The notes beneath the pieces were generated by a model, which worked only from the letters and a program-made list of their open reading frames with translations, was not told the DNA's origin and searched no databases. A stretch of 64,000 nucleotides of DNA. Source: Coffea arabica (Eukaryota > Streptophyta > Magnoliopsida > Gentianales > Rubiaceae). The number at the start of each line of letters is the position of its first letter. Within the stretch, counting starts at the first letter, position 1. The stretch spans positions 41,068,287 through 41,132,286 of the forward strand of contig NC_092326.1 in the NCBI RefSeq assembly GCF_036785885.1. Direction: 5' to 3'. The translations under genes were made by a program, and so were the position numbers. Below, piece by piece: positions 6,968 through 33,385 of the stretch.

Positions 6968-7098
6968 GGGTAAAGTACATAAAACCCCCCTGTGGTTAAG
7001 GAAATTGACACGAAACCTCCTCATTGTTTAGAAACTCCCACTTAACCCCCCTGTGCTTTGGACTTGTTTGGCTTTTACCTGCTAACCGGCTGGGGAGC
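6968..7098 (+). repeat. MULE left terminal inverted repeat
   Basis: This 131-bp arm pairs with 21232-21362 with mismatches only at three places (a C/T near the start and two around CACGAAACCTCC/CATTG). It ends at CTAACCGGCTGGGGAGC, after which the two sides diverge abruptly. Confidence 0.95.
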
Positions 7099-8326
7099 TA
7101 GCGAGTGATATTTACGCGACTTAATGGTAACTTGTGTCTAGCAGAAACTCATTTCATTCCAATTTTGTCCTCCATGTCTCTTCCAAGCTTGCACCCACCA
7201 TAGTTGTAGATCTGCAAATGAAAAATTTCGACAGAGATGCAAAACGAAGACCCAACCTCTATTCAATTGGATTCCAGGTCAGCCTAACCCTTCTTCAATG
7301 GGAAAGCAATAGAGCCTTTCATACCTAATTTCGAAAGAGAATGAAAGAAAGGGCTATAGCTTCGTTCCAATTACCAGGATTGCTAGGCGGGAAGCAAGCA
7401 ATGGTTCATAGTAGTTCTAGGTTGGGCACTGATTCTTGAGTGACTCGCAATTCATAGAGAAAAGGGAGCATCTCCAGCTCATTCCGAACTCAGATTCATG
7501 GGCACTACTTGCTACCAATCTGAACTACCTAACATACGCTCTTAATCCCTGGCTTGCTCAATCCCCAAAGGCAGTTCTCAAGGGCCACAAATCTACCTTT
7601 TTGATCCACTTCGCCCATCTTTCTATCGCATAGCTGCATAGTTAGCCTTTCCATCCACAATGGCATCTCTTCTGGGTTTAGTTGGTTAGCAATTGAGGAA
7701 GTCGCCAGACTGATTCGACTCCTTTTGAAAAGGTTTCAGCCAGATCTAGGCCTAATCAAACAGGCAATCAAAGCCTTGAAAAACAAAAAAACTACAGAAT
7801 GTGTAAGCAAGAGAAGGGAGCAAGCAAAGCAACAAACAGATCAGAAAAAGCGCCTGCGGCTTCTGAGCCAATCCCTGAGATTTTGTACCCAGAACGGAAA
7901 AGACGAAGCTTTAGCTTACTTTGGCATTGATCTACGCGCCCTGAATTAGGGCTGTTTACACTGGTAAGGATTTTCTTTGGGCTTTCGTTCGTTGTTGCTG
8001 GTCCCGGGAACGATCTAGAGAATTAGGCGAGAAGCAGACGGTGTGCATTGAAGATGGGTTTTTCCTCAGGAACAGGAAGAAGGAATGCCTACTTTGGAGT
8101 TGGTGCTGCTTTTGTGGACAACGCTTGCTAGCGAAGAATGTTTTGGGATGCGGAATGCTGCTCCAGCGAATGCGAAGAACAAAGAGATCCTGCCGCTAGG
8201 AAAGGAAGGGACGATGCTCAGCCCATGATGGAGGGAAGCCTATTCAAGAGAAATTTCTAAAAATATGATGAAATTTTAAAAAATTCTACAAAGGGGGCGT
8301 TTTGTGTATCGTTTTCTATGTTGGGG
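7099..8326. other. Insert inside the MULE left end, possibly mitochondrial-derived DNA
   Basis: About 1.2 kb separates the left TIR from the first palindrome array, whereas the right side has only about 175 bp. The part from about 7340 to 8230 is richer in GC than its surroundings. Its texture (short purine-rich words such as gaaagaaagggctatagc and gtcccgggaacgatctagag) resembles non-coding plant mitochondrial DNA. Only short frames are open and I recognise no gene. A captured nuclear sequence is the alternative. Confidence 0.35.
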
Positions 8327-8493
8327 ATCTTCGCATTTAGCAAATGCAAGCTCCTAGAGCTCGCATTTGCTAAATGCGAAGTTGACATGAATTTTGACCC
8401 AAACGAAATTAAAAAAAAAAAAAAAAAAAGCGCATACCTCGCATTTTCTAAATGCGAGGTCATGTTGACCTCGCATTTGCTAAATGCGAGGTC
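8327..8493. repeat. Left CGCATTT palindrome array
   Basis: Four copies of a short palindrome of the form (C/T)TCGCATTT-N3-AAATGCGA(G/A), one slightly decayed, are spaced over 167 bp and split by an A-run. The same unit occurs four times in the mirrored position on the right side of the MULE. Each copy could form a 9-bp-stem hairpin or serve as a dimeric protein-binding site. Confidence 0.85.
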
Positions 8494-8799
8494 TACAACC
8501 ACTCATTTCCTTAATTCTTTTTGACGTTTGATTAATACGTATTTGGACTTTTCAACTTTAGTAAATATTTAAAAGTCAGTACCACTAAATATGTCACAGT
8601 TATGATTTCTTGGCTGTAAAGTTGTGTGAATTTCATTTCACTCGACAACAGTGAGACTAACAATAATCATTTTTTGCATTTAAAACAGCGATTGGTGGAT
8701 TAAAAAAATTGGCGAGTTTTGTAGCTTATTTGGAATTAGTCGGAAAAGGGAGAAAATGTTTGGAAAATTGCAGTTGGTGTAATTAGTGCAGAAGTGTGA
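8494..8799. other. Spacer between two palindrome arrays
   Basis: AT-rich spacer inside the MULE. I see no gene, and no similarity to the equivalent right-hand spacer at 20536-20890. Confidence 0.4.
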
Positions 8800-8996
8800 T
8801 GATCCGAGCTCGTATCCTATAAAACCCAGAAGGATCCGACCTCGGGTCGTTTGAAGAGCAAAAAATTAAAACAGGAGATCCGAGCTCGGATCATTCAAGT
8901 TCCAGTTGGATCCGAGACCTCGGATAAACTTCAGCAGTTGTGGATCCGAGCCATGTAGGATCCGAGGACTAAAAGTACAGATACGCCCTCGGATCT
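8800..8996 (+). repeat. Left GATCCGAG palindrome array (inverted partner at 20341-20535)
   Basis: A 197-bp block built from variants of GGATCCGAG-(C)TCGGATCC separated by short spacers. Its reverse complement recurs at 20341-20535 with roughly 80% identity over the full length, including shared spacers such as ATAAAACCCAGAAGGATCCG and AAAAATTAAAACAGG. It is therefore a second inverted-repeat pair inside the TIRs. Confidence 0.9.
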
Positions 8997-10085
8997 GTTC
9001 GCGGATAAAGCAGAAACGAGGGTTCGTTTCTGCACTTTTCAAATATTTCTTCCCTCTTCTCACCGAAACCCTACCCCCTTTTCTCCAATCTTCTATTTAG
9101 TCTATCAAATCTCCAATCCTTCACCATAAACACCTCCGTAACCCTTGTATGATCATAAACCGTAAGCTATTTCACCACAAAACATCATCAAAAGTGGATT
9201 TTGATATTAAAAAGGCAATTTTGGGCCGCACGGAATTTGTTTTATTTGTGGGTAAAATTGGACTTGTGTCTCCCTCATTTGTCATCATTATCATCCTCCA
9301 GCATCCTCATTTACATTTGAGGTAACAATTTGCAATTTCTTTTGAGATTTTATAACTCCTATTTTTGGATATTTTTTTTAGTTTTTGAGTAATTGTGATA
9401 AAAGCTTATTTGTTGAAATTTCTTGATACAATTGTGTTACATTGTGATAATATATACATTTAGTTATGGTTGTTAGCTTAGATTTGAGAAATTTGTTAAT
9501 ATCCTCCTGAAATTTTATAATTTTTCTCATGAAAGCACACTAGACTTTTGTTTGCAATTTCTTGTTTTCGTGTATAATTTGCATTTGTTTGCTTGAAATA
9601 AGTGCATCTTTATGCAAATTGATGATAAATTGTGGCAAGTATAGTGGGTAGTTATGTATTGGTTTGAAGGAAAGTGCCAAAAGTTGAGAATTGTTTGAAT
9701 TGAAGATGTTTTTCGTAAGCCTGATGTAAGACGCTTCGATGAATTGATGTTTGGGGAAGCTTAATGTTATAGCATAGTGTCATTGATAGTCTACTTGACT
9801 TTCAAATTTTATTCCAATGTTACAAATGGTTTTAATTGTCAAAGTATTGGAAGTATTTAGCGTATCATGACAACCTTGTTGGTAATATTCATTCTCAATG
9901 TGAGAATTGTATTTGTGAGGTCTTACGTAGATTTTTTGCTTGAATTTTTGGTAAATGTTGGCAGGTAGTTTAGCCCTTTTTCAAGGGGAAACTCTGCCGA
10001 AATTTTTTTTAATTCTTATTTAATACGTGCGAGCAAGTTTCTACGATTTCTAATGAACGTTCATCTTGCTTTTGGTATAGGTATT
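8997..10085 (+). promoter_or_regulatory. Leader region and 5'UTR intron of the third MULE gene
   Basis: Sequence around 9060-9321 looks like a plant 5'UTR (pyrimidine-rich, cgaaaccctaccc). A donor (CATTTGAG|gtaaca, exon end 9321) and an acceptor (ggtatag, exon start 10081) define a 759-bp intron ending five bases before ATGGCTCGC at 10086. The presence of a spliced leader suggests a real gene rather than a random frame. Splice use is inferred from motifs. Confidence 0.5.
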
Positions 10086-11450
10086 ATGGCTCGCACAAGA
10101 AGGTCTAGAGCACCGACACCTCCATCTTCGTCGACAGAGGAACACACACCTTCCTTGCATGAGGAGTCACCTGAAGAGGAATCTCCGTCACCAGAGCCGC
10201 CACCTCGCTCTCGCCGGAAGACCGCGTCTACTAGCCGTGACGAGTCACCTCCGGACTACGATACCACTCGATTCACCTCGCTTGAAAACCAAATATGGTA
10301 TGAATTCGGCTTAGACAAGGAGATTATCATCGAGAAGCACTTGGCACCGGAAGTGGATGCACACTACCACATCTCCACAGCATTCAAGCGCCTTGGTTGG
10401 GAGAACATCTTACAACTTCCCAAGCATTACTACCCAACCTTGGTCCGGGAGTTCTAAGCCAACGTGGAAAACAAAGAAAGCCACAGTGGCAATGTCATCG
10501 TCTCGTGGGTTCGAGGCAAGAGAGTGGCTCTTACTCGGGATACACTGGGACAGTTCGTCAAACTCAAAGACGAAGGACAAGATATCAAATTGACGAAGGA
10601 GTTCAAGGCGCGAGACCCTTGGCAGGTGGGAGAGGCGGTTGGACGCCTCAAGGGCCAGTATAGAGAGAGAGGAACTGCGAAGAAGCTTACAGTTTACGCC
10701 GATTCATTCGAGCATAGGTACCACCTAATCTTCTACCTGTTTGCCTTCAATGTGGTACCAAAAAAAAGTGGAAAACGGGAGCTCCGCAATAGTGATCTCT
10801 ACTTTTTGGACAAAATGATGCATGGTGTGGGTGCGCAGCTGACCGGCATTCCTCTACCCAGCATTATCATCAGTTATATGCGGACTACAGCTCGCATGAG
10901 GGCCGGCGAGACCTGCTTCGGGTTTCCAAGACTGCTATCCCTCATATTTGAGAAGGTCAAGGTTCCTCTTGGAACCGAGCGAGCTATCGTCACCAGGTCT
11001 GTCGAGGAGGTTAATACCTCTATACTCAAAGCTTTGGGCATTGCTACGGATTTTGGAGCTGCTCTGGTTCGAGACACTGGAGAGGCATCGACTTCCGCCC
11101 AACCTCCTCCGCACACTGAACCACAAGTGGAAACTCGAGAGGCGGAGGCACAGCAAGCTCTTCCTCCTCCTGTTCCTCGACCACCACCTCCTCCGAGATC
11201 AAAATGGCAAGAGCTCCTAAATGCCATTTGTTGTATGGAGGGACGAGTCGTCGAGCGTATCGATCAAATGGAGAGACGGATGACGGAGCGACTAGACAGG
11301 CATGATCGCCGTCTTCGGGCGATGGAAGAACACTTCAACATCCGCCGGTCGCCTACTCCGACACCTCATCAGGAGGAGGGCCATATTGGTACCTCACAGG
11401 GTCCTCACGGAGCGGAGAAGGCAATAGACCCTCGTTCCGAGCAGCCATGA
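10086..11450 (+). pseudogene. Putative plant transposon protein, broken by one in-frame stop
   Basis: The frame starts MARTRRSRAPTPPSSSTEE and is interrupted by a TAA at 10455-10457. It then continues in the same frame to 11450 (454 residues in all, counting the stop position as one). Order: a Ser/Pro/Glu-rich head (about residues 1-60); a globular part with FTSLENQIWYEFGLDKE and, after the stop, ENKESHSGNVIVSWVRGKRV and LIFYLFAFNVVPKKSG; a Pro-rich linker; and a C-terminal Arg/Glu coiled segment with WQELLNAICCMEGRVVERID. It resembles the family called putative plant transposon protein (PF20167), of unknown function. Context LVREF-stop-ANVE suggests a former Tyr codon (TAT or TAC). Readthrough or a recent loss are both possible. 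Confidence 0.65.
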
Positions 11451-12050
11451 CGCTCAGTAGCGGCTTGGATATTTTATTTCTCTATTTTGCTTTTATTTTG
11501 TTAAGACAAGCTTTGTAGTTTTGTTATTGGATTATCTTGTCCAACTTAGGTAGTTTCGTACCACTATGCAATTAGGATTTTTAGTTTTTAGGAAGTATAT
11601 TCGGTTAAATAAGCAAAATTACCTCGCTTGGAAATTTGCATGATTAATGATATTTGTCATTTTCACTTAATTTCGTTAGTAAGTGCTTGATATAGTCACG
11701 ATAAGGCCAAATTGCAACAAAGCTATGCTTAAATGACAAAAGCAGTTGATGCCTAAATTAAAGAATAATATAATTAATTTTCTGCTCCAATGAATCATGT
11801 ACTGGGTAACAAGGGGGCATGCCTTTTACAAATGTCTACAGGAACTTATTTAAGGGTCGTCTAAACGAATTCAAATTAGTGGATTAATGCGTTAATTGAC
11901 TTAACACCGTGAAGGTTATTGAAGTATGAAATTCATGCACGAACTGAAAGAAATGTAAGGGCTAATTAAGAAAGAAACGCAGAACAGATTGGGAGCAAAA
12001 TTGTACAAATACAGGAAAGGCGTAAAAAATAAAGCGTAGGAGTTGCTGCA
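11451..12050. other. 3' flank of the broken gene, nothing recognised
   Basis: AT-rich sequence following the stop of the third MULE gene, probably its 3'UTR and spacer. No further open frame with coding character was seen. Confidence 0.4.
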
Positions 12051-12052
12051 CC

Positions 12053-12352
12053 CGGATCCGAGGCGCGGATCCTTGTTGACAAGAATGATCCGAGGCCTCG
12101 GCTTTACTTCTGCCGTAAGGGATCCGAGGTCTTCTGTATCCGACCTCGGATCTAGAAGGGAAAGTCCACGGACCACTTGGATCCGCGCACGGATCCGTAT
12201 TAACAAGTTAGATCCGAGGCCTCTGATGTAGTTCTGTAGTAAGTGGTTTGAGGTCGTTAGGATCCGACCTCGGATGTACGATGGAAAGTCCACGGATCAT
12301 ATGGATCCGAGCTCGTATCTATTATCACGAGACAGATCCGAGGTGCGGATCT
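12053..12352 (+). repeat. Middle GATCCGAG tandem array (about 125-bp units)
   Basis: Two full units (12053-12178 and 12179-12302) and a partial third (from 12303) each begin with GGATCCG. Each full unit carries GATCCGAGGCCTC, a TCCGACCTCGGAT palindrome and the tail GAAAGTCCACGGA. It belongs to the same palindrome family as the flanking arrays at 8800 and 20341, but is arranged head-to-tail. It lies between the broken gene and the PMD gene. Confidence 0.85.
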
Positions 12353-12360
12353 GTCTCTTT

Positions 12361-13027
12361 CCTCAGGTCAATTGGCAGAGCCGTTTTGCTACATCTTTCT
12401 CACAGGTTTTACAGCTATTTTGCAGAGCTTAACCTTCAATTGGCTAAGTTTGCTTTTACCTTTGTTCACCTTCCTCTCAAGTGGTTAGTTAATGCGCATG
12501 TTATCATATTTAAATTTCAAATCATCACATTTCCTGATTGCAATGTGTTATTTACAATTCCATTCCAATTGTGACTTCCGTAAGATCATAAGAAGACATA
12601 CAAAATAAAATATTCTTTTCGTGCCCTTGTATTATTTACATATAGGCATTTTTTTTAGACTGAGTACCTCGCATGTTGTCCAAGTGAATTTTTATCAGAT
12701 GATTATGGAGTGATTATTTCTAAATTAGAAATGAGAAAATATGAGATCAAGCTAGACAATGGATATTGCACCGACTCAGATGGATGACAAAAAATGTATT
12801 ATGATTAATATAAAATTTTTTGCTAAAAAAATTTTTTTGACAAAGTCTCCCCTTAAAAGTGGACAAAACTCCTGCCAGCAAACCCAAAATGCACCTGAAG
12901 ATTTTCTCATACCCATATTTCCAGCAACGTGTCCAAATATTTTAAAAATAAAACTACTATTCGCCAAAGTAAAGAATATAAACAATATATGAAACAAACA
13001 ACAACTACAGAATTAAAGTGCTGAATA
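12361..13027. other. Spacer downstream of the PMD gene
   Basis: AT-rich; likely includes the 3'UTR of the minus-strand PMD gene. No gene seen. Confidence 0.4.
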
Positions 13028-15364
13028 TCAATGATGTCCAAGTCTTCCATGAGTGCCACATCCTCTGGGTTTGCGCACTCTCTGTGATCGACGTGGCTGG
13101 ACTGGGATCGCCTCCTCGACTTGAGTAATCTGTGACTCAAGTCTAGCATCAATAGCTTGGAAACTTGGGCCTTCATCTGTACCTCCTACATGTTGTTCAC
13201 CACTTGCAAGATGCAAGTCTGTAAGGGGCGTAAACTCCGCCATAGGCACTGGCGACCTAGGATGGCGGCTGTACATACGGCTGCCCTGATGCTCGGTAGC
13301 CTGTGACCGTCCATCACATCCAGTTTGGACGGTGGGGTCTGGTGACCGGAGTCTACGACGGCGTCCACCACCATGCTGACCTCCGTGAACATTCCTAGGA
13401 GCTCTTTCAAGGCGACGGGGGTCTGTTGGTTGCGGAATTTGCTGGGGTACTAGTGGAGGGCGAAATGCAAGTCGGGATGACTCCCCTACAGTGTCCAATG
13501 TCATGGATGCAAAGTCCTTCATTGCATTAAAATAAATCGTGTGTTGTTCGTCACTCTGTGCGACACAGGTCTCAGCCATGTAATATACTTGAGACATAGC
13601 ATCCATCTGGAGATATAATGTTGGGATGAGTCGGCTAGAATAGAGTTAAATCTTAACAACTTGGGATTTGTTTGAAGGATCTGTTTGAGTAATTGTAAGG
13701 AACACTTACTAGATATTGTGCTCTAGCGCTATCCCCCTGAAAGCCCTCCGGATAAACGGGATGCCTAGTAGGATTTGAAATATATAACACTGTCCGCTCG
13801 CGATACCATTGACGATACTCATCGGACGGATAGGTAGGATCTTCAGTTACAGCACCGTCCTCCACATGCATAGGCCGATCAGTCCACACATCAATATATG
13901 GTGCATGTCTAGTTATCCAGTCTTGATTCCCCTTGCCACGACGATCAAGAGAATGCAGTGCCTGTTGATTATCGGTCAATCTTAGATCAGGCACGGGCTG
14001 ATGATATCCAAACTGTCTCATAACTCGATTCGGAAGATGTGGCTCGACAACTTCCCAACATATGAGATACGTGACAGATCTCCAAATGTCGTGTCCTGCA
14101 GTACAATATGCAGGCAGAGATGCGAGAATATCGTCCGAGTACGGCTGCCATATAAACTGCAAAGCCAATAGTTATTCAATTTCGCCATACACACAATACA
14201 TCACAATATTCATGCTCGTTTTTACATCTAAATTCATGCTTAGTGTACCTCTCGGGCACGTAAGCCTGTCAACTGATCTCGGAATACAGATACAACATGT
14301 CTTGCCACTCTGTGTACATCAAATTGAACATTCCACCTGAGGGAACGAATTGGAAAAATATTTGTCAAAGGAGATAGTTGAGTCGTATTAGTATTACAGA
14401 AATATATCTGATATATACATACCGAGCTCCATATGGACCAGGATAGTGCTCTAACGGCTGCACACGATCAGGGCGCATTGTTGGTATACGTTCCCACGCC
14501 CATAGCTGTAATTTATTATATTTGAATGTATGTGATGACCGTATAATCATCACCTACTTAAAGTTTAACACGTTGAATCTGGAGGAAATGTACCTGAAGC
14601 AAAACTAATGGTCCCGCAATTGCCGATCTACAGGGAGATGTGGCGTTACACAATGATCGATACAGAGTTGCTAATATCGCGCTTCCCCAACTATATTGTC
14701 CAACAGTTTTCAAATCTCGTAGTAATGGCATATACAATAGGGGGACTTTGTTACCGGACTTATCTGCTAATAAATGACCGCCTAATAGCAGGAGCAGGTA
14801 TACACGGGCCCGCTGTCTACATTGGACATCCGAAGCTGCAGGTGTCAACTCTGTATCTAAGACTCTAGCTAAACAGCCTAATTTGAGACGCTGCCCATCA
14901 AAATCTGACATCGCTGGATAAAATCCAATCAACTCCCCACATAAATTCCTCCACTCCTCAACACTATGAGATGTATCAATTCCTATAACTGGAGGACCGT
15001 CTATGGGTAGACCCCACAGAACCTCCACATCCTGCAAGGTAACCGTAGTCTCTCCGACGGGGAGATGAAATGTATGCGTCTCGGGCCGCCACCGCTCCAC
15101 CAAACTAGTTATCAAAGCATGATCGAGCATCATATATCCACAATCAAGCACCCCTTCAAAGCCAGCCAATCGAATATACTGTCGAACGGTCTCAGGGATA
15201 GGTGTATGCTCCCAAAAGTGCCTATCACACCGCCTAACATCAAGCTGCTCACCTGCAATGTGCCCGTGAAATATAGAATGTGCCCGGTGTGCAGTGCCTG
15301 CTGAGATAATATCATACACGAATGGCCCCGGATGCAAGGCTGCATGTGTAGGAACGTCGGCCAT
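13028..15364 (-). CDS. Plant mobile domain (MAIN/MAIL1-like) protein carried by the MULE
   Basis: Five exons with GT/AG borders and matching phases: 15364-14594, 14505-14423, 14336-14249, 14156-13710 and 13606-13028, giving 655 residues with no stop. The first exon holds the plant mobile domain (PF10536): FHLPVGETTVTLQDVEVLWG and GLPIDGPPVIG, then GSAILATLYRSLCNA. Exon 2 gives LWAWERIPTMRP and exons 3-4 give WNVQFDVHRV and REFIWQPYSDDI. The C-terminus is basic (RRSQRVRKPRGCGTHGRLG). Host relatives MAIN and MAIL1 help silence transposons and maintain meristems; transposon-borne PMD proteins have unknown function. It lies about 250 bp downstream of the transposase on the same strand. The ATG at 15364 (MADVPTH) is preferred; one 12 codons upstream (15400) is also in frame. 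Confidence 0.85.
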
Positions 15365-15614
15365 ACAGAAAATAATAGCTGCAAATGCATTATGTAACAT
15401 ATAAGGCTACTACACATTTAGATAGTAGATTGGTAGTTGCTAAAACTAATGCAACACCTGAAATATAGGGATGCTAAAAATGACACTTAAAAATATAACG
15501 AGTAAAGTACTGATAAACAGAATGACATAGCATAAATCATATTAATTCCATAATCCAACATACTGACATAACAAACGTTTAGTACACTGGTTCCCATCCC
15601 TAAAACGGATGATG

Positions 15615-18341
15615 TCAAACTCTAAAATTAGGACAATTTCTTCTATTGTGACCCGACTGATGGCAATTTGTACACCTTCTTGGTTCCTCCGGATCTCTCT
15701 CGTCCATCTCATTCCGAATTCTTCTAGCTCGTACCCTCCCCGCCCGACGGGCAACATATTTACTGCGATCTGCCTGTAACTCCCAATCCGGTTGGAGCCA
15801 AGTATCCGGATGTGGCAAAGGGTAGAACTTTCCTGAATACTGAACTGTCCATCGCCTTTTTGTAAACTGCGGATCTACCTGCGCCCCCGGATTATCCCTG
15901 CGATGCCTGCACACGGCCAACACGTGGGAACAAGGAAGTCGGTAGCACTGCCACTTACCACAAGAGCAAGATTTTTCCAAATACTTGACCGTTTGTATAT
16001 TGCCCCCTTTGCCGTCCACACGGCGGCCAGTCGTCACTTTATACACTCCTGCAGAGCCATCGAACTCAACAACCCGGTGGCTTCCCGCTTTCTGATCCGA
16101 ATTCTTAAACTTTCGCCAAATCTTTGGAGGAAATGGATATTTGCAGTGTCTGGCATCCTCCTTTCTTGTTCTAAACAACTCTACTATCCGATGAAAAGTC
16201 AAATCAATACAAGCCCGGATAGGCAAGTGACGTGCTCCTCTAAGTACATTATTGTAACTTTCGGACATGTTAGTTGTGAGAATACCCCAGCGATGGCCAC
16301 CGTCATGAGTTAGACACCACTTCTCGGTTTCAATGTTAGACAGATAGGTCCATGCATCTGGAAATGTGCTCCTTAATTCTCGTTTGAATGCCCTCCACTT
16401 GCGCAACTGTCTGGCCCTTCCCAGTGCCCAACACAACTTTTTTAGGTTCAAACCTTTGAAGTGAGTCATTAGGTTACTCCTAACGTGTCGTAGGCAAAAC
16501 CTATGAAAGGCCAAATGTTCTTGCCAATAGTCAAAATTTTCCATAGCATGAATAATGCCGGGATGCCGATCTGAAATGACACAAATGGGATACCGATCGC
16601 GGGCGACGTGGTATCTAAGTTGCTCCATGAACCAAGACCAACTAGAAATGGTCTCCTCGTCGACTATGGCATAAGCTATTGGAATAATGTGGTTGTTGGC
16701 ATCCTGCGTCACGGCAACAAGTAGTTTGCCCTTATATTCGCCACGCAAATAAGTGCCGTCAACACATATTACCGGCCGACACATGTGAAATGCATCAATA
16801 GCCGGTGAAAAGGCCCAGAACACATACTTAAATGTCTTCACGTGATCCGTACTACCCGAATGGTGTAACCACCTGATAACGGTTCCCTGATTTGACTTCA
16901 CAAGCGCGTCAAGATATTTTGGTAGTTCGGCAAAATTTGTTTCCCAAGAACCAAAAACAAGTTCAATAGCTTTGCGTCTGCCGTACCACGCCTTTTTATA
17001 AGAAACATCCACCTTCAGCACCTTTTTAACATCACTGACTATGTTCTTTACTTTGTACCCAGGATCGTCTTCGATGCTATGAACAACGTGTCTAGCAATA
17101 ACCGAAGATGTTAGACTAGCATTGCTATTACTCATCAAATCACCCAGACAATTGTGATCGTTCACCCACCTGGTTATTTGCCACAATCCGTGTGTCTTTT
17201 TCTTCACTGCTCGGACACACCAGTCGCATGGAGGTTCCGATGAGTCGGCTGCAGTGGTGAAGCTCCTTTCAATTGCGGATTTACATTTGGCAACCCAGGT
17301 ATTTCTCTTACTCTCAACAACCCTGAACTCCCTATTATGAGTGATAGACCACATTCTAATAGCCCTGCTCAGCTGTTGTTTGCTCTCAAACCTCATATGC
17401 AGCCTTATATTATTATTTTCCTCACTAAATGTCACAATGCGCTCCAACTCATCGTCATCTGTCATATACTCGTCATCATCTATGTCTCCAAGGTTAGAGA
17501 AGAATTTCAAACCTCGTGGAGCATACAAGGGGTTGCTAGATGCATCAAAAGCCCGTTGGTTCTCAAAATCCAGGTGGACTCCATGTTGTCCAATATCGCC
17601 ATCTGAGTCACTGCCTGACACATCAACCGACTCAGATTCCTCTGCATCTTCCACGTCATGCTCCAAATCATCATCTAGGGGGCTGTTGCAATGGCTTGGA
17701 CCGGCAGTGAAATCCAAGCCATAACTACCAAGATGATCCGGCGATTCTGGATGTCTAAAACTTTGAATCGCGTCTAGGCCCTGAACAGATTCAACATCCG
17801 TCCTTAAGCCTGATGTAAGACGTGGCTCTAACGAGTCCCTACCACAATATCCCTGTGCCCATTGTGATACCGATGCCGTCTCAGGTACTGCTGTGCTAGA
17901 GCTTGGTTGAAATCTTGTCGGATCCATGCATGCATGGACAAGCGACATCATCGGACCTAAATTAGTATTTGGTGAAATGAATGTCCCGGTGACTCGAGGA
18001 TTTTGGAATTTTTCATCCTTCTCGATATACAGTTCTGCGGTGTATGGAACAATTTCAGTCCATACATCGTACATTATCGCAAGAGTTTCATCATCAACCA
18101 CTGGGGACACGTTATAAGAGCTCCGGCCACAAGGTTGGCGGAGAAATATATTCAACTTGAACAGCCCCCTATCGACCCCCATATATTCATAGATTCTATC
18201 CACCAACTCATCATATCCAATCCTGCATCGTAATGAGAATGTACGGTTGCAGGTACGAGGCAAGTAACAAATTGACCCATCCTCGTAGTGTAATTTACCT
18301 CCCCAATAAAGAGACACGCGCAGAGGTCTTTCTATAGACAT
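15615..18341 (-). CDS. MULE transposase (MURA-like) with SWIM and CCHC zinc fingers
   Basis: Single open frame of 908 residues starting MSIERPLRVSLYWGGKLHYE. Residues about 200-300 are acidic. The DNA-binding part near 330-400 includes CDWCVRAVKKKTHGLWQITR. The catalytic domain has the first Asp in CVDGTYLRGEYKG (about D528), the second in VISDRHPGI (about D591), the C/H pair FCLRHV, and a Glu in NMSESYNNVLRG (about E694). A SWIM zinc finger follows (SCSCGKWQCYRLPCSHVLA, about 792-809), then a CCHC knuckle (CTNCHQSGHNRRNC, about 890-903). Length and order match full plant MULE transposases, which cut and paste elements with long TIRs and 9-bp duplications in the nucleus. No disabling lesion is visible. 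Whether it is expressed cannot be told. Confidence 0.95.
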   Translation of the reverse strand: MSIERPLRVSLYWGGKLHYEDGSICYLPRTCNRTFSLRCRIGYDELVDRIYEYMGVDRGLFKLNIFLRQPCGRSSYNVSPVVDDETLAIMYDVWTEIVPYTAELYIEKDEKFQNPRVTGTFISPNTNLGPMMSLVHACMDPTRFQPSSSTAVPETASVSQWAQGYCGRDSLEPRLTSGLRTDVESVQGLDAIQSFRHPESPDHLGSYGLDFTAGPSHCNSPLDDDLEHDVEDAEESESVDVSGSDSDGDIGQHGVHLDFENQRAFDASSNPLYAPRGLKFFSNLGDIDDDEYMTDDDELERIVTFSEENNNIRLHMRFESKQQLSRAIRMWSITHNREFRVVESKRNTWVAKCKSAIERSFTTAADSSEPPCDWCVRAVKKKTHGLWQITRWVNDHNCLGDLMSNSNASLTSSVIARHVVHSIEDDPGYKVKNIVSDVKKVLKVDVSYKKAWYGRRKAIELVFGSWETNFAELPKYLDALVKSNQGTVIRWLHHSGSTDHVKTFKYVFWAFSPAIDAFHMCRPVICVDGTYLRGEYKGKLLVAVTQDANNHIIPIAYAIVDEETISSWSWFMEQLRYHVARDRYPICVISDRHPGIIHAMENFDYWQEHLAFHRFCLRHVRSNLMTHFKGLNLKKLCWALGRARQLRKWRAFKRELRSTFPDAWTYLSNIETEKWCLTHDGGHRWGILTTNMSESYNNVLRGARHLPIRACIDLTFHRIVELFRTRKEDARHCKYPFPPKIWRKFKNSDQKAGSHRVVEFDGSAGVYKVTTGRRVDGKGGNIQTVKYLEKSCSCGKWQCYRLPCSHVLAVCRHRRDNPGAQVDPQFTKRRWTVQYSGKFYPLPHPDTWLQPDWELQADRSKYVARRAGRVRARRIRNEMDERDPEEPRRCTNCHQSGHNRRNCPNFRV

Positions 18342-19235
18342 GCGTGTGGAAAGAATCCCTATTTTGGAATAAAATAAGTTAGCTCATGCGGTACAAGAGT
18401 ATACATCAGATAACAATCCCTATCCATTGTTACTGTTTCATGTGTGATACTTAGGACAACTCACCTTAATCGTGTTGCATGTGCGTTTAAGGTACAAGTT
18501 AGTAATCGTGTGCTGTAGTCAGCATGTCATTTTCCATGTGTGTTTGTGTCACCCACTGAGTTTTCCAAACACATAATTATGTGGTCCAAGATAAGGTACT
18601 GGAGCAGAGGATCTGGGGTGCAATGAGGGATTTGTTCAAATGAACCACCTCGTTCCCGTAGATCTTGCTTGTTCCGATATACCTTTTTGGATCTATTCAC
18701 CCAAATTCAAAGAAAATATGCGTCGGTAAACTAGATAACATAGGTATAGAAAACATACTTATACAAAATAAAAAAATGTCCACGCAAGGGGGTTACTTTG
18801 GTGTCCCAAATCCGACAAGGGAGGTGTTCAAGCATTTTAAATGCGACCCCCATATATTCGCATTTCTCAGTTTATGCTCCTTACCAATTCCTTCACACAT
18901 ATTAACAGCTTAAGAGTGTATATTTATCTCATTATTTGTTCTTACTTTGTAAAACCCTTTGTTTCCTTTCTGTTGATGCCAAGGACTAAATCATGATGAT
19001 TGTCTTTTCTTGTTTTTATCATTTTTTCAACTTTTCTATAAAATGCAGATGAACGCCCAACATTTAATCCAACCATAATGTTTTCACAAAAAATAAAATA
19101 CCAAAAATCCCAACAAAGGTGAGTCCTCACATTCACCTTTTCTTTTTTAAAAAAGAATTGTGGATGAGTTTTTCTCTTCCCAAAAATGGGGTTTATTTTT
19201 AAGGACTGTCAAGTTAAAACTAAATAATATCCTCA
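18342..19235. other. Transposase upstream region
   Basis: Presumed promoter and leader of the minus-strand transposase. I recognise no further gene. Confidence 0.4.
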
Positions 19236-19373
19236 ATGACGAAAACTTTGAACGCTAAAATTCCTTATATGAAAGCTTGGTATGATAGAAGAAGAGCTAT
19301 TGAGCTTGTTTATGGCGTTTCGGTTACCGATTTAGTTGATTTACTCACCTATGTGGAAGCGTTTGGCCAATTA
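19236..19373 (+). pseudogene. Fragment of a second MULE transposase
   Basis: The plus strand encodes AKIPYMKAWYDRRRAIELVY followed by GVSVTDLVDLLTYVEAF. It aligns with KVDVSYKKAWYGRRKAIELV of the intact transposase in the same window (about residues 443-490). Only about 46 residues are recognisable and the frame breaks up after them. Divergence from the resident gene and the opposite strand indicate a remnant of a different MULE, captured or left by an older insertion. Confidence 0.75.
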
Positions 19374-20340
19374 AGTAATATTAGTCTATACTTAAAACAC
19401 CCTTGTCGCATGGAATGTTTTTTAAATTCGTCATCAAATTTGCGAATTTGTCAAACACAAATTACACAAAGGCCTCCGGCTGCTTATTGTTTCTATACGT
19501 GAAAAGCATCATAGAGAATCCAATAGCCAATACAAGTATTAGAATTGCAAAGATCACGCTGGATGAAATTGGAACCCCCTCACTTTTGATGCCCACTAAT
19601 TTAACTATGGCTTGAATCTGATATATATAGCATCATTTTCATATCGACAATTGGCAAGTAATGGTTATAGTCAGTCCATTAAAAAGAAAATAAACAAATC
19701 AACAGAAACCGCATATGTATAAACATTTTGTCTTATACACAAAAAGCTTTGGATAAAGAAAGAAACGAACCTTCCTGTACAGAAAATCAAATCATGTTTC
19801 ATCATACAATCTTTGTGTCACCCCACTTTGGTTAATAAAGTTTTCTAATTATAGGATTAAGTGTTTACCTATAACAGCCAAAGATTGAAAGACCGGCAAC
19901 TATGACAAATGGTAGCCAGAGATTATTATTGAACGAGTCATGCTTATTATATCTATGTTACCCTGTTATACTAACCTAGCAAGACAAACAAGAAGATGTG
20001 TTCAACAACTGAAAAACATGTTTTGGAAGATTCTGCCAAATTCTCACTTCACTTCACCAAGTAACCAATCGAGTTCACCAAGTAACCAAGGGAAACTTTC
20101 TACATGCTTCAAGATCAGATTATAATATAACTTCACAATGGCATGGTTATCAATTACTGAATTAAGTGACAGAAGGGACCATTAGATAGGCTGTCGAACT
20201 TCAAGACCGAGGGCTTTTTTTTTTTTCTTTACTCCACTTTTTCAGATAATACCAGAACAAAAAGGCTTTTACTTAGGCCTTTGGTGGAATTTAGCAGTGA
20301 AGTACTGGAATTTAACTGTTTAGTACCCAACACCTAAATA
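19374..20340. other. MULE right interior, no gene seen
   Basis: AT-rich sequence between the transposase remnant and the right palindrome array. Short open frames only, with a small direct repeat near 20050 (caagtaaccaatcgagttca). Nothing recognised. Confidence 0.4.
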
Positions 20341-20535
20341 GATCCGAGGGCGTATGTGTTCATAAAGTCCTCGGATCCGACATGGCTCGAATCCACTATA
20401 ACAGAAATTTATCCGAGGTCTCGGATCCACCAGGAACAGGGGGATCCGAGCTCGGATCCCCCTGTTTTAATTTTTGGCGTTTCAAATGATCCGAGGTCGG
20501 ATCCTTCTGGGTTTTATACATTCGAGCTCGGATCA
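20341..20535 (-). repeat. Right GATCCGAG palindrome array (inverted partner of 8800-8996)
   Basis: A 195-bp block. Reversed, it reproduces the left array in the same order: GATCCGAGCTCG, ATAAAACCCAGAAGG, AAAATTAAAACAGG, GAGACCTCGGATAAA, GAGCCATGT, ATACGCCCTCGGATC. Confidence 0.9.
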
Positions 20536-20890
20536 TACGCCCAAAAATTACAGCAGTACATATTCATCAACGACATAACTTAAACAAACAAAGGGAACAA
20601 GGACAAACAAACCTGGTATAATCTGAGCTGGGTAGCAGTTGAGAAATGCAGCGGCGGCGAAGAGTGTGGTGCAGCGGCGAAGATGCAACGGAATTAAACG
20701 GACAAAGGGACAACCAAAACCCAGCTGCGATGAATTGATGGGTAGCAGCTGAGAAATGAGATTCGAAATTGTGCTCAAGCGGGAAACCCAAGAGTGGCTT
20801 GGAGGCTGAAGTCGGTGGAACTTATGCTTCAACAGGTGAGTTTACACAATTGCGGTCAGAATCCAAATTTTGGTCAAAAAAGCTTGCGTA
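20536..20890. other. Possible captured gene fragment between the right arrays
   Basis: About 20610-20840 is less AT-rich than the flanks, with gcggcggcgaag words and two related motifs (gggtagcagttgagaaatg and gggtagcagctgagaaatg) about 110 bp apart. The left spacer has no equivalent. It may be host DNA acquired in the Pack-MULE manner, but no protein family is recognised. Confidence 0.3.
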
Positions 20891-21055
20891 CTTCGCATTT
20901 CTTGAATGCGAGGAAACAAGCTCGCATTTTTTAAATGCGAGCTCTTGAGCTCCCAACTGACGATCGTAGCTTGTTTTTCTTTTTTTTTTTAAACACCTAC
21001 CTCGCATTTGTGAAATGCGAGGTACCTGAACTCGCATTTCACAAATGCGAAGATC
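20891..21055. repeat. Right CGCATTT palindrome array
   Basis: Four palindromes of the form (C/T)TCGCATTT-N3-AAATGCGA(G/A) (one arm reads TGAATGCGAG), split by a T-run. They mirror the four-copy left array at 8327-8493 including the position of the homopolymer. Confidence 0.85.
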
Positions 21056-21231
21056 ACATTTGTGGAAGCAGACCTTTGAATCACCCTCTTTGTAGTATAA
21101 CTTTTGTTTTTCATCACAAAATAAGAATTTTCTCGCCTATTCAAGATGCAATTTCTCAAATTGACTCATTGCATCTGTAACTTTTCACATATTATATATG
21201 AGGGTATTTTTGGTATTTCATATTATTACCG

Positions 21232-21362
21232 GCTCCCCAGCCGGTTAGCAGGTAAAAGCCAAACAAGTCCAAAGCACAGGGGGGTTAAGTGGGAGTTTCT
21301 AAATAATGAGGAAGTTTCGTGTCAATTTCCTTAACCACAGGGAGGTTTTATGTACTTTACCC
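21232..21362 (-). repeat. MULE right terminal inverted repeat
   Basis: Inverted partner of 6968-7098. On the plus strand it begins GCTCCCCAGCCGG and ends ACTTTACCC, directly followed by the duplicated target CAAAAACAA. Confidence 0.95.
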
Positions 21363-26042: not shown

Positions 26043-26121
26043 GTGTGCTAAACTGCTGGACAGAAGACACCAAGTATACCTCAAAAGAATTAACCAGGAA
26101 AAAGGCCACCCATTGCCAAAG

Positions 26122-27708
26122 ATGTCCTCAAACAACCTGGCGGTGCTCAGTGCTCTCGACGGTGCACGTACCCAGTTGTACCATTTCAAGGCGATCGTGA
26201 TCGCCGGGATGGGGTTTTTCACCGATGCATATGACCTCTTTTGCATCTCCACCATCTCCAAACTCTTAGGCCGTATATATTACACTGATCTGTCCAGTCC
26301 TAAGCCTGGAAAGCTTCCTCATGTAGTGAACAATTGGGTTACTGGAGTGGCCTTAGTTGGTACCCTAACCGGCCAGTTAGTCTTCGGATGGCTGGGAGAT
26401 AAGCTAGGGCGCAAGAAAGTTTATGGCCTCACTCTCCTTCTCATGGTCGTTTGTGCTATTTGCTCAGGTTTGTCTTTCGGAAGCAGCCATAGATCTGTCA
26501 TGGGAACCCTATGTTTCTTCCGCTTCTGGCTGGGTTTTGGCATTGGCGGAGACTACCCTCTTTCAGCTACTATCATGTCTGAATATGCAAACAAGAGAAC
26601 TCGCGGGGCATTCATTGCTGCAGTGTTTGCTATGCAAGGAGTTGGTATCATTTTCGCAGGCCTCGTTTCAATGATTCTTTCCAAAATTTTCCTCAAATCG
26701 TACGGCGGTCCATCATACCATGCGGACCACAAATTATCCACTGAACCACAGGCAGATTACGTGTGGCGAATTGTTTTGATGCTAGGGGCTCTTCCCGCAC
26801 TTCTCACATTCTACTGGAGAATGAAGATGCCAGAAACAGCTCGTTATACTGCCATCATAGAGGGAAATGCTAAACAAGCCGCTGCAGACATGGGTGGAGT
26901 TTTAGACGTTGAGATTCAAGCTGATCAAGACAAGTTAACACAATTCAGGGCTGCCAACGACTACAAATTGCGGTCAATGGAGTTTTTCCAGCGCCATGGA
27001 CGTCACCTGATTGGCACGATGACTACGTGGTTCCTTCTAGATATTGCATTTTACAGCCAAAACCTAACACAAAAAGACATTTTTCCTACCATGGGACTTA
27101 CAAGTGCTGCAGCTGATGTGAGTGCTTTGAAGGAAATGTTTGAGACTTCACGCGCCATGTTCTTAATTGCCCTGCTTGGGACCTTCCCAGGTTATTGGGT
27201 CACGGTCTTCTTCATTGACAAAATTGGTCGGTTCTACATCCAGCTAGTGGGGTTCTTAATGATGTCTATTTTCATGCTTATAATTGGAGTCAAATATGAT
27301 TACCTCAACACCAAGGAGCACAAGTGGTACTTTGCAGCTCTGTATGGATTAACATTCTTCTTTGCAAACTTTGGCCCTAATAGCACCACCTTTGTTCTCC
27401 CAGCCGAGCTCTTTCCAACCAGGGTGAGATCCACCTGCCATGCCCTCAGTGCAGCATCTGGCAAGGCTGGGGCTATGGTCAGTGCTTTTGGAATACAAAA
27501 CTACACGCAAGATGGCAACGTGCACAAAATTAAGAAAGCCATGATGATTTTGGCCTTCACAAATATGCTTGGATTCTGCTGCACCTTTTTGGTGCCAGAA
27601 ACAAAAGGTAGGTCACTTGAGGAAATATCAGGTGAGGATGCAGGCGAAAGTGAGGCGCAGATGACCGACAAACCACCTAAAAATCGACCAGATGCCTCCT
27701 GGGAGTGA
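26122..27708 (+). CDS. PHT1: High-affinity inorganic phosphate transporter, Pht1 family
   Basis: Intronless 528-residue H+/phosphate symporter of the plasma membrane (major facilitator superfamily), for phosphate uptake or transfer. It starts [20 protein letters not shown]; the ATG at 26122 is the first in frame. Residues 142-150 give the Pht1 signature GGDYPLSAT, continuing [29 protein letters not shown] lies near residue 35, and a hydrophilic central loop (about 245-300) separates two six-helix bundles. [16 protein letters not shown] and [15 protein letters not shown] mark the C-terminal half. Length fits the family (about 520-540). A P1BS element and TATA box precede it, suggesting induction by low phosphate or mycorrhiza. 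The exact subfamily member cannot be fixed by eye. A decayed copy lies upstream. Confidence 0.96.
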
Positions 27709-31426: not shown

Positions 31427-33385
31427 TTACCAGTAGTCTCCACAAGAACAAGAGCCACCACGAAAATGATGAAATCGGTTAGTATCTCTCAAAATGATTT
31501 CTCTGCCCACCAGCTGTGAGACAAACTTGAATGCTGTATGGCAATCACCACATACTCTAATGTTTTTCTTGATGCGAATTGTGGACCCATGAGGTGTATT
31601 GAGGAGAGCAAATGCTAGAGCAAGCTTTTCACTATGGCACTGCAACCTCACTTCCCTCTCCTGTTGGTCCACGTACCAAAGCACATGACTAGTGTCCGGG
31701 ACATACCCAATTTCTCTAATTTTATCAGCAATCTTCTCCCACATCCTACGAACCTCATTTCTCTGTGGGTGGGAATCATCATTTGCCACAAACATATGGA
31801 CATTATTCTCAATCTCTAACCAACTACATGCAGGTTCCTTTTTTACGCCACTGTCATTCATCATTTTTCTCACATTTGCAGCATCCCTCAATCTACCAGC
31901 AGAGGCATAGATGTTAGACAGCAATATGTGAGGTCCAGAATCATATGGATCAAGTTCAAAAACCTGCTCTGCAGCATAAGCACCTAAATCTATGTTCTTA
32001 TGCATTCTGCAAGCTCCAAGCAGCGCTTTCCAGATTGCTGCTGTGGGTTTGATTGGCATTTCCTTTATGAACTTTTCAGCATGGCCAAGTTGACCGGCAC
32101 GACCAAGCAAATCAACCATTGTCACGTAATGTGAGATATCCGGTTCTAATTTCAATTTCTTCATCAATTCAAAGTAGTATAGTCCTTCCTCTAAAAGCCC
32201 AGAATGGCTGCAAGCAGTTAGAACACAGAGGAAGGTTACTTCATTGGGTAAAATTCCCCTGCTACGCATTTCCTCAAAGCATTCTACAGTTTCCCTTCCA
32301 AGTCCATGTTGCGCACAAGCAGTAAGCATTGAGTTCCATGAAACCACATCGCGTTTCACCAGCCTATCAAAAACCTTGTGAGCATCCTCGATGCTACCGG
32401 CCTTCCCATACATGTCAAGAAGAGTATTCCCAACAAAAGCTATAAGCTTTAACCCCGATTTCACCAAATGCCCGTGTACCCATTTTCCCTGCTCCAAAGC
32501 TCCAATACTTGCACAAGCTGCAAAAACACTAGAATACGTGAAATGCGTGGCCTCAAAACCTGCCTTTTTCATCTCCGAAAACAGCCTCACTGCAATCGCA
32601 GCCTCACTCTTCCTAGCGTGGCCTGCAATCAAAGCATTCCAACAAACCTCATTCTTGCTCATCAACCCGTCAAACACCACTTTTGCCTCTTCCATTTGGC
32701 CACACTTCGCGTACATATCAACAAGAGCACTCCCAACATACACATCATCACCATGACCGCTTTTTAAGCAAACCGCATGAATTTGCCTGCCCTCCATCTC
32801 CCCAACAGCAGTCGCCGCCTTCAACACACTCCCCAAAGTAAATTGATTCGGCACGAATCCATCCCTCAACATCTCCACAAACAAACCCAACGCTTCCTGG
32901 GCTCTATCGTTCTGCGAAAACCCAGTAATCACGGCAGTCCAAGAAACCATATCCCTCTCAGCCATTTCATCAAACACCTTGCGCGCCTCAACTGGCGACC
33001 CACATTTGGCATACATATTAATTATCGAGTTTTGCACAGCAACATAGTTACGATAACTGGAATTCAGGACATGGGCATGGACGAGCCTTCCTTCCTTCAG
33101 CCTCCCCAGCTGGGTACAGCGTTTAAGGAGTTGGTTGTAGAGAGTGGCGTTTGGGTCCATCGCACCATTATCGATGAGGCCCAGCACGTAGAGACCATTG
33201 GGGGTCTTCCTGAGAAGGTCTTTGTCTTGGATTATCCCGCCAAAAGATGCTCCGGTGAATCCTCCGATGTCGTCTTCTAAGTCTAAGGGGGCAGTGGCGG
33301 CGGAGCTGGCGAAATGGCGTGAAGAGAAGAGGACTGTTTTCAGTATTGAATCGGAGAAGGGCGGATTTGTTATATACCTTTTCAT
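31427..33385 (-). CDS. DYW-type pentatricopeptide repeat protein, At3g24000-like
   Basis: Intronless 652-residue PLS-class PPR protein. PPR-DYW proteins bind organelle transcripts and deaminate chosen cytidines to uridine. The N-terminus (MKRYITNPPFSDSILKTVLF, then SSRHFASSAA) looks like a mitochondrial presequence. About ten repeats follow, with typical words such as VQNSIINMYAKCGSPVEARK, RDMVSWTAVITGFSQNDRA and TFLCVLTACSHSGLLEEG. Then come E/E+ motifs (PTAAIWKALLGACRMHKN) and a complete DYW domain with HSEKLALAF (the HxE zinc-deaminase site), CGDCHTAFKF and the terminal CSCGDYW. Wording is close to Arabidopsis At3g24000, predicted mitochondrial. The ATG at 33385 has no in-frame rival upstream. 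The RNA target cannot be read from sequence. Confidence 0.95.
   Translation of the reverse strand: MKRYITNPPFSDSILKTVLFSSRHFASSAATAPLDLEDDIGGFTGASFGGIIQDKDLLRKTPNGLYVLGLIDNGAMDPNATLYNQLLKRCTQLGRLKEGRLVHAHVLNSSYRNYVAVQNSIINMYAKCGSPVEARKVFDEMAERDMVSWTAVITGFSQNDRAQEALGLFVEMLRDGFVPNQFTLGSVLKAATAVGEMEGRQIHAVCLKSGHGDDVYVGSALVDMYAKCGQMEEAKVVFDGLMSKNEVCWNALIAGHARKSEAAIAVRLFSEMKKAGFEATHFTYSSVFAACASIGALEQGKWVHGHLVKSGLKLIAFVGNTLLDMYGKAGSIEDAHKVFDRLVKRDVVSWNSMLTACAQHGLGRETVECFEEMRSRGILPNEVTFLCVLTACSHSGLLEEGLYYFELMKKLKLEPDISHYVTMVDLLGRAGQLGHAEKFIKEMPIKPTAAIWKALLGACRMHKNIDLGAYAAEQVFELDPYDSGPHILLSNIYASAGRLRDAANVRKMMNDSGVKKEPACSWLEIENNVHMFVANDDSHPQRNEVRRMWEKIADKIREIGYVPDTSHVLWYVDQQEREVRLQCHSEKLALAFALLNTPHGSTIRIKKNIRVCGDCHTAFKFVSQLVGREIILRDTNRFHHFRGGSCSCGDYW

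Follow-up and report, generated by a model that had tools for sequence, protein, structure and literature searches.

T32, an accessory gene of a nested Mutator-like element in Coffea arabica, is a candidate sequence-specific regulator of array-bearing transposon promoters

Introduction

Where does a transposon that carries several accessory genes begin and end, and which of these genes might act against host silencing? A locus in a 64,000-nucleotide stretch of the Coffea arabica genome (the window) raises both questions. The initial annotation placed here a single Mutator-like element (MULE) with exact boundaries at 131-bp terminal inverted repeats (TIRs), carrying a MURA transposase, a plant-mobile-domain (PMD) gene and a PF20167-like gene, and it proposed the PMD protein as an anti-silencing factor. 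An anti-silencing role of MULE-borne PMDs has already been published as speculation (PMC5418596; repeated in PMC8616336).

Results

The gene-bearing MULE is nested in an unrelated element

The 131-bp TIRs (6968-7098 and 21232-21362, 3 mismatches) delimit a non-autonomous element of 1,498 bp in total, which has a 9-bp target site duplication (TSD), CAAAAACAA, and is split into a left part (6968-8247) and a right part (21135-21362); elements, repeats and arrays are given without strand. The joined outer flanks aligned without gaps over 1498 bp to locus L002 (99.67%), and with a single gap each to L003 (98.1%) and L005 (98.4%). These three uninterrupted copies of the outer element can be aligned end to end at 98-99.7%. 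The alignment of the joined flanks over 1,498 bp ruled out the 131-bp TIRs as the ends of the gene-bearing element.

The real ends lie at 8248 and 21134, and all three annotated genes fall between them. This inner element is 12,887 bp long, with termini GAGAAATTTC...TTTCTC, and is flanked by a 10-bp TSD, GCCTATTCAA, at 8238-8247 and 21135-21144, the second copy opening the right part of the outer element. The empty site was found in L002, L003 and L005, where GCCTATTCAA occurs as a single copy. Moreover, the C21 copy of the inner element has identical termini and its own TSD, CATGCAATTG, and is without the 131-bp TIRs. Because of the empty sites and the separate TSDs, the gene-bearing element is shown to be a 12.9-kb MULE that sits inside a 1.5-kb TIR element unrelated to it. 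The TSD is 10 bp in both the window and C21 copies, within the 8-11 bp of MULEs; a TSD of the C4 copy was looked for and not found. The TIRs of the inner element have diverged in the window (20 of 26 terminal bases match) and are nearly identical in the C4 copy, as expected of a MULE. Subterminal repeats CTCGCATTT/AAATGCGAG at 8326-8515 and 20880-21055 are candidate MURA-binding end repeats; CTCGCATTT was counted 10, 14, 2 and 5 times in four MULE lineages, and not at all in the gypsy unit described below or in the remainder of the window.

The 131-bp TIR had also been proposed as a probe for whether the three genes travel together. It matched only outer-element ends at seven other loci (L002-L008, with 1.5 kb flanks), comprising five whole short elements (L002-L006), one nearly whole (L007) and one covered at one end (L008). 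The initial annotation had named such an outcome as a sign of accidental passengers; it arises because the TIRs belong to another, smaller element. When co-travel was retested with the correct element, the genes were found to move together.

A conserved MURA-PMD pair

The MURA gene (15615-18341, minus strand) is a single stop-free exon of 908 aa. Its MULE domain (PF10551) scored 65.7 bits against a cut-off of 27.6 (E 5.3e-18), as in a MULE, and a SWIM match was obtained (E 4.1e-7), whereas the DBD_Tnp_Mut and CCHC matches fell under the Pfam cut-offs. The annotated intact transposase with a SWIM finger was confirmed.

The PMD gene (13028-15364, minus strand) is separate from MURA, 250 bp away on its 3' side. 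In agreement with the annotated intact five-exon structure, its exons (15364-14594, 14505-14423, 14336-14249, 14156-13710 and 13606-13028) are joined at GT..AG junctions throughout and encode an open frame of 655 aa. The PMD domain (PF10536), which marks the PMD-C (MAIN/MAIL) class, was matched by exon 1 (E 8.5e-50) and by the exon-4 frame (E 8.8e-23), and there was a weak DUF1985 match (E 0.002). A PDB search with exon 1 as query gave no match up to E 1. In a tree of 14 sequences, none of them a named MAIN/MAIL1 sequence, the MULE PMDs grouped next to intron-bearing host PMD genes (43-51% identity) and a single-exon host gene stood apart.

At 41 of 50 MURA loci, a PMD follows MURA on its 3' side in the same orientation; the count drew on 105 of 148 PMD matches (the 43 omitted being mostly low-scoring) and 50 of the 61 MURA matches (the other 11 being second pieces of the same loci). 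Eight MURA loci without a listed PMD were checked: three held PMD remnants, and five had no PMD within 1.5 kb. Between subfamilies, dN/dS against the window was 0.18-0.25 for MURA (22 loci) and 0.10-0.20 for PMD exon 1 at 15 of 16 PMD loci, the remaining one, a short remnant, giving 0.33. Constraint was weaker among the closest copies (MURA 0.31-0.45, PMD exon 1 0.16-0.39). These results show that MURA and PMD are a conserved pair that forms the core of the element and is kept together across subfamilies, and that PMD is evolving under purifying selection, which bears out the view that it is no accidental passenger.

T32 is an accessory gene exchanged between element classes

The third gene, T32 (PF20167), was confirmed at 10086-11450 on the plus strand; the window copy is interrupted by an in-frame stop (10455-10457), its second part matching with E 1.2e-12. 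Intact copies exist elsewhere. T32 lies 3' of PMD in all four MULE lineages examined, and a listed T32 occurs within 20 kb at no fewer than 13 of the 50 MURA loci; at least 20/40 was obtained in a PF20167 count that used 82 of 150 matches. Among type-2 T32 matches, 7 of 11 tested had a PMD nearby (11 of 103 matches, against 7 PMDs). The dN/dS of T32 was 0.08-0.11 in six comparisons, and 0.31 between the close copies of the window and C21, where constraint is weaker. Hence dN/dS is far below 1 for both PMD and T32, unlike the fragmentary, unselected captures of Pack-MULEs. Unselected passengers, as an account of PMD and T32, were excluded by the 41/50 linkage and the low dN/dS.

In a domain search up to E 1, four T32 proteins matched PF20167 alone, and DUF1985 and DUF287 were not found. 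A single-sequence structure model of the second T32 frame was poor (pLDDT 43.7, pTM 0.24), and the only prominent part of this low-confidence model is a C-terminal helix (249-296). T32 relatives were sought in viral contigs and none was confirmed. A divergent fourth type of 378 aa was found at L055.

T32 also occurs in a Ty3/gypsy retrotransposon (L048/L049), 3' of gag-PR-RT-RH-INT and followed by a PPT-like box. This is the Athila-type arrangement, in which a PF20167 protein lies 3' of pol; in sunflower Athila such a protein carries an NLS (PMC11728184). Synonymous divergence of T32 conflicts with that of MURA and PMD in both directions. Between the window and C4, bootstrap ranges of dS were 0.42-0.60 for MURA, 0.25-0.47 for PMD and 0.82-1.42 for T32; between the window and C9 they were 1.29-2.03, 1.18-2.65 and 0.64-1.04, respectively; and between the C9 and gypsy T32s the range was 0.21-0.35. 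In addition, the PMD 3' regions of the C9 and C11 MULEs are 86% alike, yet their T32s are 39% identical, and no fewer than two strongly divergent T32 types are found among the MULE lineages. Because T32 divergence disagrees with that of MURA and PMD, the same gene lies 3' of gypsy pol and the MULE T32 types differ, T32 is shown to be an accessory gene that has moved between elements more than once, crossing between class I and class II. No paper linking T32 to a MULE or to PMD was found in the literature, a weak negative result as most subscription journals lay outside the scope of the search.

Each of three T32 types has its own motif array

A distinct CpG motif array stands upstream of each of three T32 types: ATCCGAG (type 1), AAAACGCG (type 2) and ATCCGGCC. 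No array was present in the upstream stretch read for the divergent T32 at L055. In the window, a type-1 array of 8 sites lies at 8791-8999, 1.1-1.3 kb upstream of T32, another at 12063-12341 on the downstream side of T32, and a third at 20337-20534 upstream of MURA, which repeats the T32-upstream array in inverted orientation (84-91%). There are 6-19 sites in each type-1 block, compared with at most 1 per 300 bp elsewhere in the window, and the type-1 array is additionally found in the gypsy LTR. The large inverted arrays at 8791-8999 and 20337-20534 were absent from the initial annotation.

The top CpG 8-mer was counted in 2-kb stretches upstream of nine T32s (the gypsy upstream stretch not being among them). 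It occurred 11-20 times at C4, at C11 and at two type-3 loci, and 7 times each at C21, at C9:5859578 and in the window, whereas shuffling gave a maximum of 3-5. Seven of these nine stretches have the array at a promoter-like distance; a C9 array lies 3.0-3.5 kb upstream of T32, the nearest 2 kb being array-free. The C11 lineage has the type-2 array upstream of T32 only, with 1 site in 1061 bp upstream of MURA, and motifs of both type 3 and type 1 are present in the type-3 copy L056. Among window-clade copies, short ones included, 15 of 16 T32-side arrays have an inverted partner (20 of 103 T32 matches against 40 of 44 array matches).

The DOWN motif of the host was rejected as the target of these elements: a single site with one mismatch was found in the whole inner element, and the 5' stretches scanned in C4, C9 and C11 were free of it.

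Discussion

The pairing of T32 types with arrays led us to a reading that we put a little short of an even chance: T32 would be a sequence-specific regulator, acting like VANC, that keeps array-bearing promoters active against host silencing, in the nested MURA-PMD-T32 MULE as in the retrotransposon. T32 would be a nuclear DNA-binding factor with sequence specificity for the array that matches its type, and its binding would keep or make the promoters of T32, MURA-PMD and the gypsy LTR active despite host silencing, as VANC does in VANDAL MULEs. The second accessory factor would be PMD, which is constant and might compete with MAIN/MAIL1-type proteins of the host. With its interrupted T32, the window element would need T32 supplied by intact copies. 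T32 with its array is a candidate self-protection module moving between very different transposons. A wider version, which we advance only tentatively, is that this portable anti-silencing module arose in LTR retrotransposons, split into mutually blind types while still in them, was repeatedly adopted by MURA-PMD elements and had its array copied to the transposase promoter in type-1 lineages, giving a self/non-self code across classes I and II.

T32 is physically linked to its upstream array, and co-variation by descent is expected even without function. Linkage might therefore suffice: the array would be a fast-evolving T32 promoter, bound by a host factor and not by T32, acquired with T32 and duplicated to the MURA side. 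The prevalent promoter-like distance, the MURA-side array being a copy of the T32-side one and the C11 lineage having none at MURA all fit this account, which is a doubtful but serious contender. Taken alone, it leaves unexplained that a change of T32 type goes with a change of motif, that type-1 motifs recur in a gypsy LTR and that both arrays are kept in nearly all window-clade copies, even short ones.

It is improbable, in our judgement, that PMD is the anti-silencing factor, as proposed in 2017 and in the initial annotation, and T32 a retrotransposon-derived passenger. PMD is constant with MURA, is under purifying selection and groups with intron-bearing host PMD genes, and host MAIN/MAIL1 function in silencing (PMC5418596, PMC9899485); however, constraint on T32 is at least equally strong, the scanned stretches hold a single, mismatched DOWN site, and the arrays track T32 rather than PMD, the C9 and C11 PMDs being similar in the part compared while their arrays differ. 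The cis/trans evidence points to T32 as a stronger anti-silencing candidate than PMD. That the ATCCGAG arrays are subterminal MURA-binding sites required in cis for excision seems very unlikely. In the window-clade element they form an inverted pair, one towards each end, and copies with closely spaced arrays retain them, but the examined parts of the C11 element, which has a 71% identical MURA, contain none, a retrotransposon does carry them, and a distinct end repeat, CTCGCATTT, is present in all four MULE lineages and lacking from the gypsy unit.

The natural swaps between element classes provide matched pairs, in which MURA-PMD is similar and T32 and array differ, so the role proposed for T32 can be tested directly. 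Binding of T32 to its array, if real, would take sequence-specific anti-silencing past VANDALs to abundant gypsy elements.

Several known systems share parts of this arrangement. MULEs with PMD-C domains, for which an anti-silencing role was proposed, have been described in grasses and Amborella with PMD fused to the transposase (Ikeda et al., 2017, PMC5418596); here PMD stands apart from the transposase as a five-exon gene, the family is large and spans several lineages, and T32 is added. Ogre retrotransposons bear PMD extra ORFs as accessory genes of gypsy elements (PMC6317226), whereas here a single MULE combines PMD with T32. Athila-type Ty3/gypsy elements have a 3' extra ORF of the same Pfam family as T32, PF20167 (PMC11728184), which in coffee is also carried by a cut-and-paste DNA transposon. 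The VANDAL MULEs of Arabidopsis (PMC5735166) likewise combine a transposase with accessory genes, and their dense non-coding motif arrays vary between families along with the accessory protein VANC. VANC carries DUF1985 and DUF287, whereas T32 matches PF20167 alone, so T32 may act like VANC without being a member of its family. Array binding was demonstrated for VANC, compared with array co-variation for T32, and, unlike in VANDALs, the gene and its array are here common to a MULE and a retrotransposon.

Nesting of the gene-bearing MULE

The initial annotation had placed three genes in one element ending in 131-bp terminal inverted repeats (TIRs). The repeats were borne out (6968–7098 and 21232–21362, 3 mismatches), and a 9-bp duplication, CAAAAACAA, flanks the TIR element in the window. 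However, they are the TIRs of another element, known from copies without genes and from empty sites, and not the ends of the gene-bearing one. In a genome search with the 131-bp TIR (best 40 of 349 candidates scored), matches at seven other TIR loci (L002–L008, 1.5 kb per side; one end for L008) covered the window-element ends only. The joined window flanks (6968–8247 plus 21145–21362; 1,498 bp) aligned end to end and without gaps to L002 at 99.67% identity, and end to end to L003 and L005 at 98.1% and 98.4%. GCCTATTCAA is single in these three short copies and duplicated in the window, flanking 8248–21134. Moreover, contig C21 carries the inner element again, with identical start and end bases, a 10-bp duplication of its own, CATGCAATTG, and no 131-bp TIRs. 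Therefore, the genes belong to a 12,887-bp MULE, 8248–21134, that is inserted in an unrelated non-autonomous element. The C4 copy ends as in the window, with no recognisable target site duplication.

Further inverted repeats surround the outer element (6898–6967/21785–21854, 81%; 21366–21499/21658–21791, 73%), and it seems to lie itself within a further small TIR element, making a threefold nest. Outer-family TIR pairs about 6.1 kb apart (C13:36345710–36351821 and C3:50297634–50303651) may mark larger elements related to the 1.5-kb outer one. Long open frames elsewhere in the window (26044–27708, 31427–33385, 52228–53067, 55275–56759 and 60618–61868), named by eye, resemble host genes (phosphate transporter, PPR protein, ribosomal protein L10, cytochrome P450 and aminopeptidase); the nest sits in gene-rich DNA.

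Gene content and the MURA–PMD pair

Frames and domain matches confirmed all three proposed genes between the 131-bp repeats: the MURA transposase (15615–18341, − strand; 908 aa, zero stops), the plant mobile domain (PMD) gene (13028–15364, − strand; five exons, 655 aa) and the PF20167 gene, T32 (10086–11450, + strand). The third gene is thus present, but its window copy is not intact because of an in-frame stop at 10455–10457; T32 copies with an open frame were found elsewhere in the genome. A second MURA-like transposase relic lies within the inner element at 19224–19502 (+ strand, opposite the intact MURA; 44% identity over 43 aa, E 3e-8). Inside PMD exon 1, the frame at 14561–15364 (− strand) weakly matches DUF1985 (E 0.002), described as a VANC protein domain (PMC5735166), and a distant kinship between PMD and VANC is possible.

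The MURA protein was found at 50 loci in this genome (61 rows; best 50 of 3102 candidates scored), and at 41 of them PMD lies 3' of MURA on the same strand, a count drawing on 105 of 148 PMD matches. Of the other nine MURA loci, eight examined with their flanks yielded PMD remnants in three and no PMD within 1.5 kb in five. Once the correct element is used, the proposed association of MURA and PMD holds as a stable pair.

Relative to the window copy, dN/dS between subfamilies was 0.18–0.25 for MURA (22 loci) and 0.10–0.20 for PMD exon 1 at 15 of 16 PMD loci (0.33 in a short remnant), and was higher in the seven closest copies (MURA 0.31–0.45; PMD exon 1 0.16–0.39). For T32, the ratio was 0.08–0.11 in six comparisons, 0.31 for window–C21, 0.22 between two type-3 copies, and 0.04–0.07 for C9:5859578, a comparison with nearly saturated dS. 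These ratios indicate that MURA, PMD and T32 are under constraint. A small tree placed the MULE PMDs in one group adjoining intron-bearing host PMD genes (43–51% identity), apart from the single-exon type. Two chromosomes (C10:47700792–47714090 and C9:52679385–52696848) carry, in matching order, clusters of PMD genes whose frames are long and whose domains are full-length and uninterrupted; these are probably host genes.

T32 in a Ty3/gypsy element and its exchange

The T32 search (best 121 of 1545 candidates scored) gave at least 18 places near PMD or MURA among the matches listed. At least 13 of the 50 MURA loci had T32 within 20 kb among the matches listed, one of these neighbours, 15.6 kb from MURA, being perhaps incidental. 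Two T32 copies spaced 11.7 kb apart enclose gag, then pol (protease, RT, RNase H, integrase), with T32 3' of pol. This unit is a Ty3/gypsy element, which by analogy with sunflower Athila 14 may be Athila-like. Just after T32, the gypsy element and the C4 and C11 MULEs carry a PPT-like box; the window copy lacks it, and in C9 it has decayed. The location 3' of pol and the PPT-like box point to a retrotransposon ancestry of the T32 module. T32 also occurs in regular series (C8:8279002–8294915, C22:20344872–20416075, C15:45753122–45781220 and C11:19355038–19379414) with units of about 7.7, 8.6, 9.0 and 11.7 kb, of which the 11.7-kb unit alone was read; the pattern resembles LTR elements joined head to tail through common LTRs.

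T32 lies 3' of PMD in each of the four MULE lineages examined in DNA; the two genes share a strand in C4, C9 and C11 and are on opposite strands in the window clade. Bootstrap ranges of dS were 0.42–0.60 (MURA), 0.25–0.47 (PMD) and 0.82–1.42 (T32) for window–C4, and 1.29–2.03, 1.18–2.65 and 0.64–1.04 for window–C9, indicating that T32 diverged more than MURA in the former pair and less in the latter. T32 of C9 and the gypsy element differed by a dS of just 0.21–0.35. Between C9 and C11, the PMD 3' region is 86% alike, whereas T32 identity is just 39%. Type-2 T32, as in C11, has PMD alongside in 7 of 11 rows tested, and also occurs in series with units of 8.6–9.2 kb, which we infer to be retrotransposons. 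By these sequence comparisons, T32 has evidently been exchanged between element classes. Across L009–L038, MURA and PMD exon 1 divergence is discordant (dS 0.50 vs. 0.35 from the window to the C4 clade; 0.34–0.35 vs. 0.62–0.71 from the window to the C16/C6 copies), as if these modules too recombined between lineages.

Motif arrays associated with T32

Three of four T32 types have type-specific upstream arrays: ATCCGAG (type 1), AAAACGCG (type 2) and ATCCGGCC (type 3). The most frequent CpG 8-mer in the 2 kb preceding T32 occurred 7 times each in the window, C21 and C9:5859578, 20 times in C4, 14 in C11, and 15 and 11 in two type-3 copies; 200 first-order shuffles gave at most 3–5. The MULE-end repeat ties with this 8-mer in the window and C21. 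Over the same 2 kb, nothing exceeded the shuffles in C9, whose array lies 3.0–3.5 kb upstream, and no 8-mer exceeded chance for a divergent 378-aa T32. Relative to T32, sites span −1284 to −1098 in the window, −1303 to −1142 in C9:5859578, −1328 to −934 in C11, −1407 to −1088 and −1376 to −1088 in the type-3 copies, and −1887 to −1339 in C4, plus one at −845. Furthermore, among the genome matches listed, at least 20 of 40 type-3 arrays had a T32 domain 981–1053 bp downstream, and at least 19 of 40 type-2 arrays a type-2 T32 903–1013 bp downstream. One type-3 T32 locus (L056, C16:34793500–34796500) carries a separate type-1 block of six ATCCGAG sites beside its type-3 array.

ATCCGAG sites number 8, 6 and 8 upstream of MURA and 8, 19 and 14 upstream of T32 in the window, C4 and C9, with 8 (window) and 7 (C9) downstream of T32. 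The gypsy unit has 7 in the pol–T32 spacer and 9 in the LTR, located by eye from the PPT and primer-binding site; elsewhere in the window the density never exceeds 1 per 300 bp. In the 1.5 kb upstream of MURA, all 10 C4-clade loci fetched had 4–7 sites and the remaining 20 MURA loci had none, a range that stops short of the window-clade array, 2 kb upstream. Upstream of the C11 MURA there are zero ATCCGAG sites and one AAACGCG site, which argues against a general rule of arrays at MURA. For 15 of 16 T32-side arrays of the window clade, a partner in inverted orientation lay no more than 40 kb away (nine at 9.4–15.3 kb, two at 24 and 33 kb, and four at 4.0–8.1 kb, probably short derivatives). 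The near-end repeat CTCGCATTT, a candidate transposase site, occurs in all four MULE lineages (10, 14, 2 and 5) and not in the gypsy unit.

Discussion

We infer that T32 may recognise its own array and, once bound, would counter silencing or activate transcription in a VANC-like manner. The strongest rival explanation is that linkage alone accounts for the pairing of T32 with its array. A single-sequence structure model of T32 was too poor for a fold to show.

Ikeda et al. (2017; PMC5418596) describe MULEs of grasses and Amborella in which a PMD-C domain is fused to the transposase, and suggest that it serves anti-silencing; in contrast, PMD here is a separate gene. The 3' extra ORF of sunflower Athila 14 is reported as PF20167 with a nuclear localisation signal (PMC11728184), and the coffee gypsy unit likewise has a PF20167 gene 3' of pol. 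VANC proteins are described as acting via motif arrays in VANDALs (PMC5735166); T32 would resemble them through its type-specific arrays.
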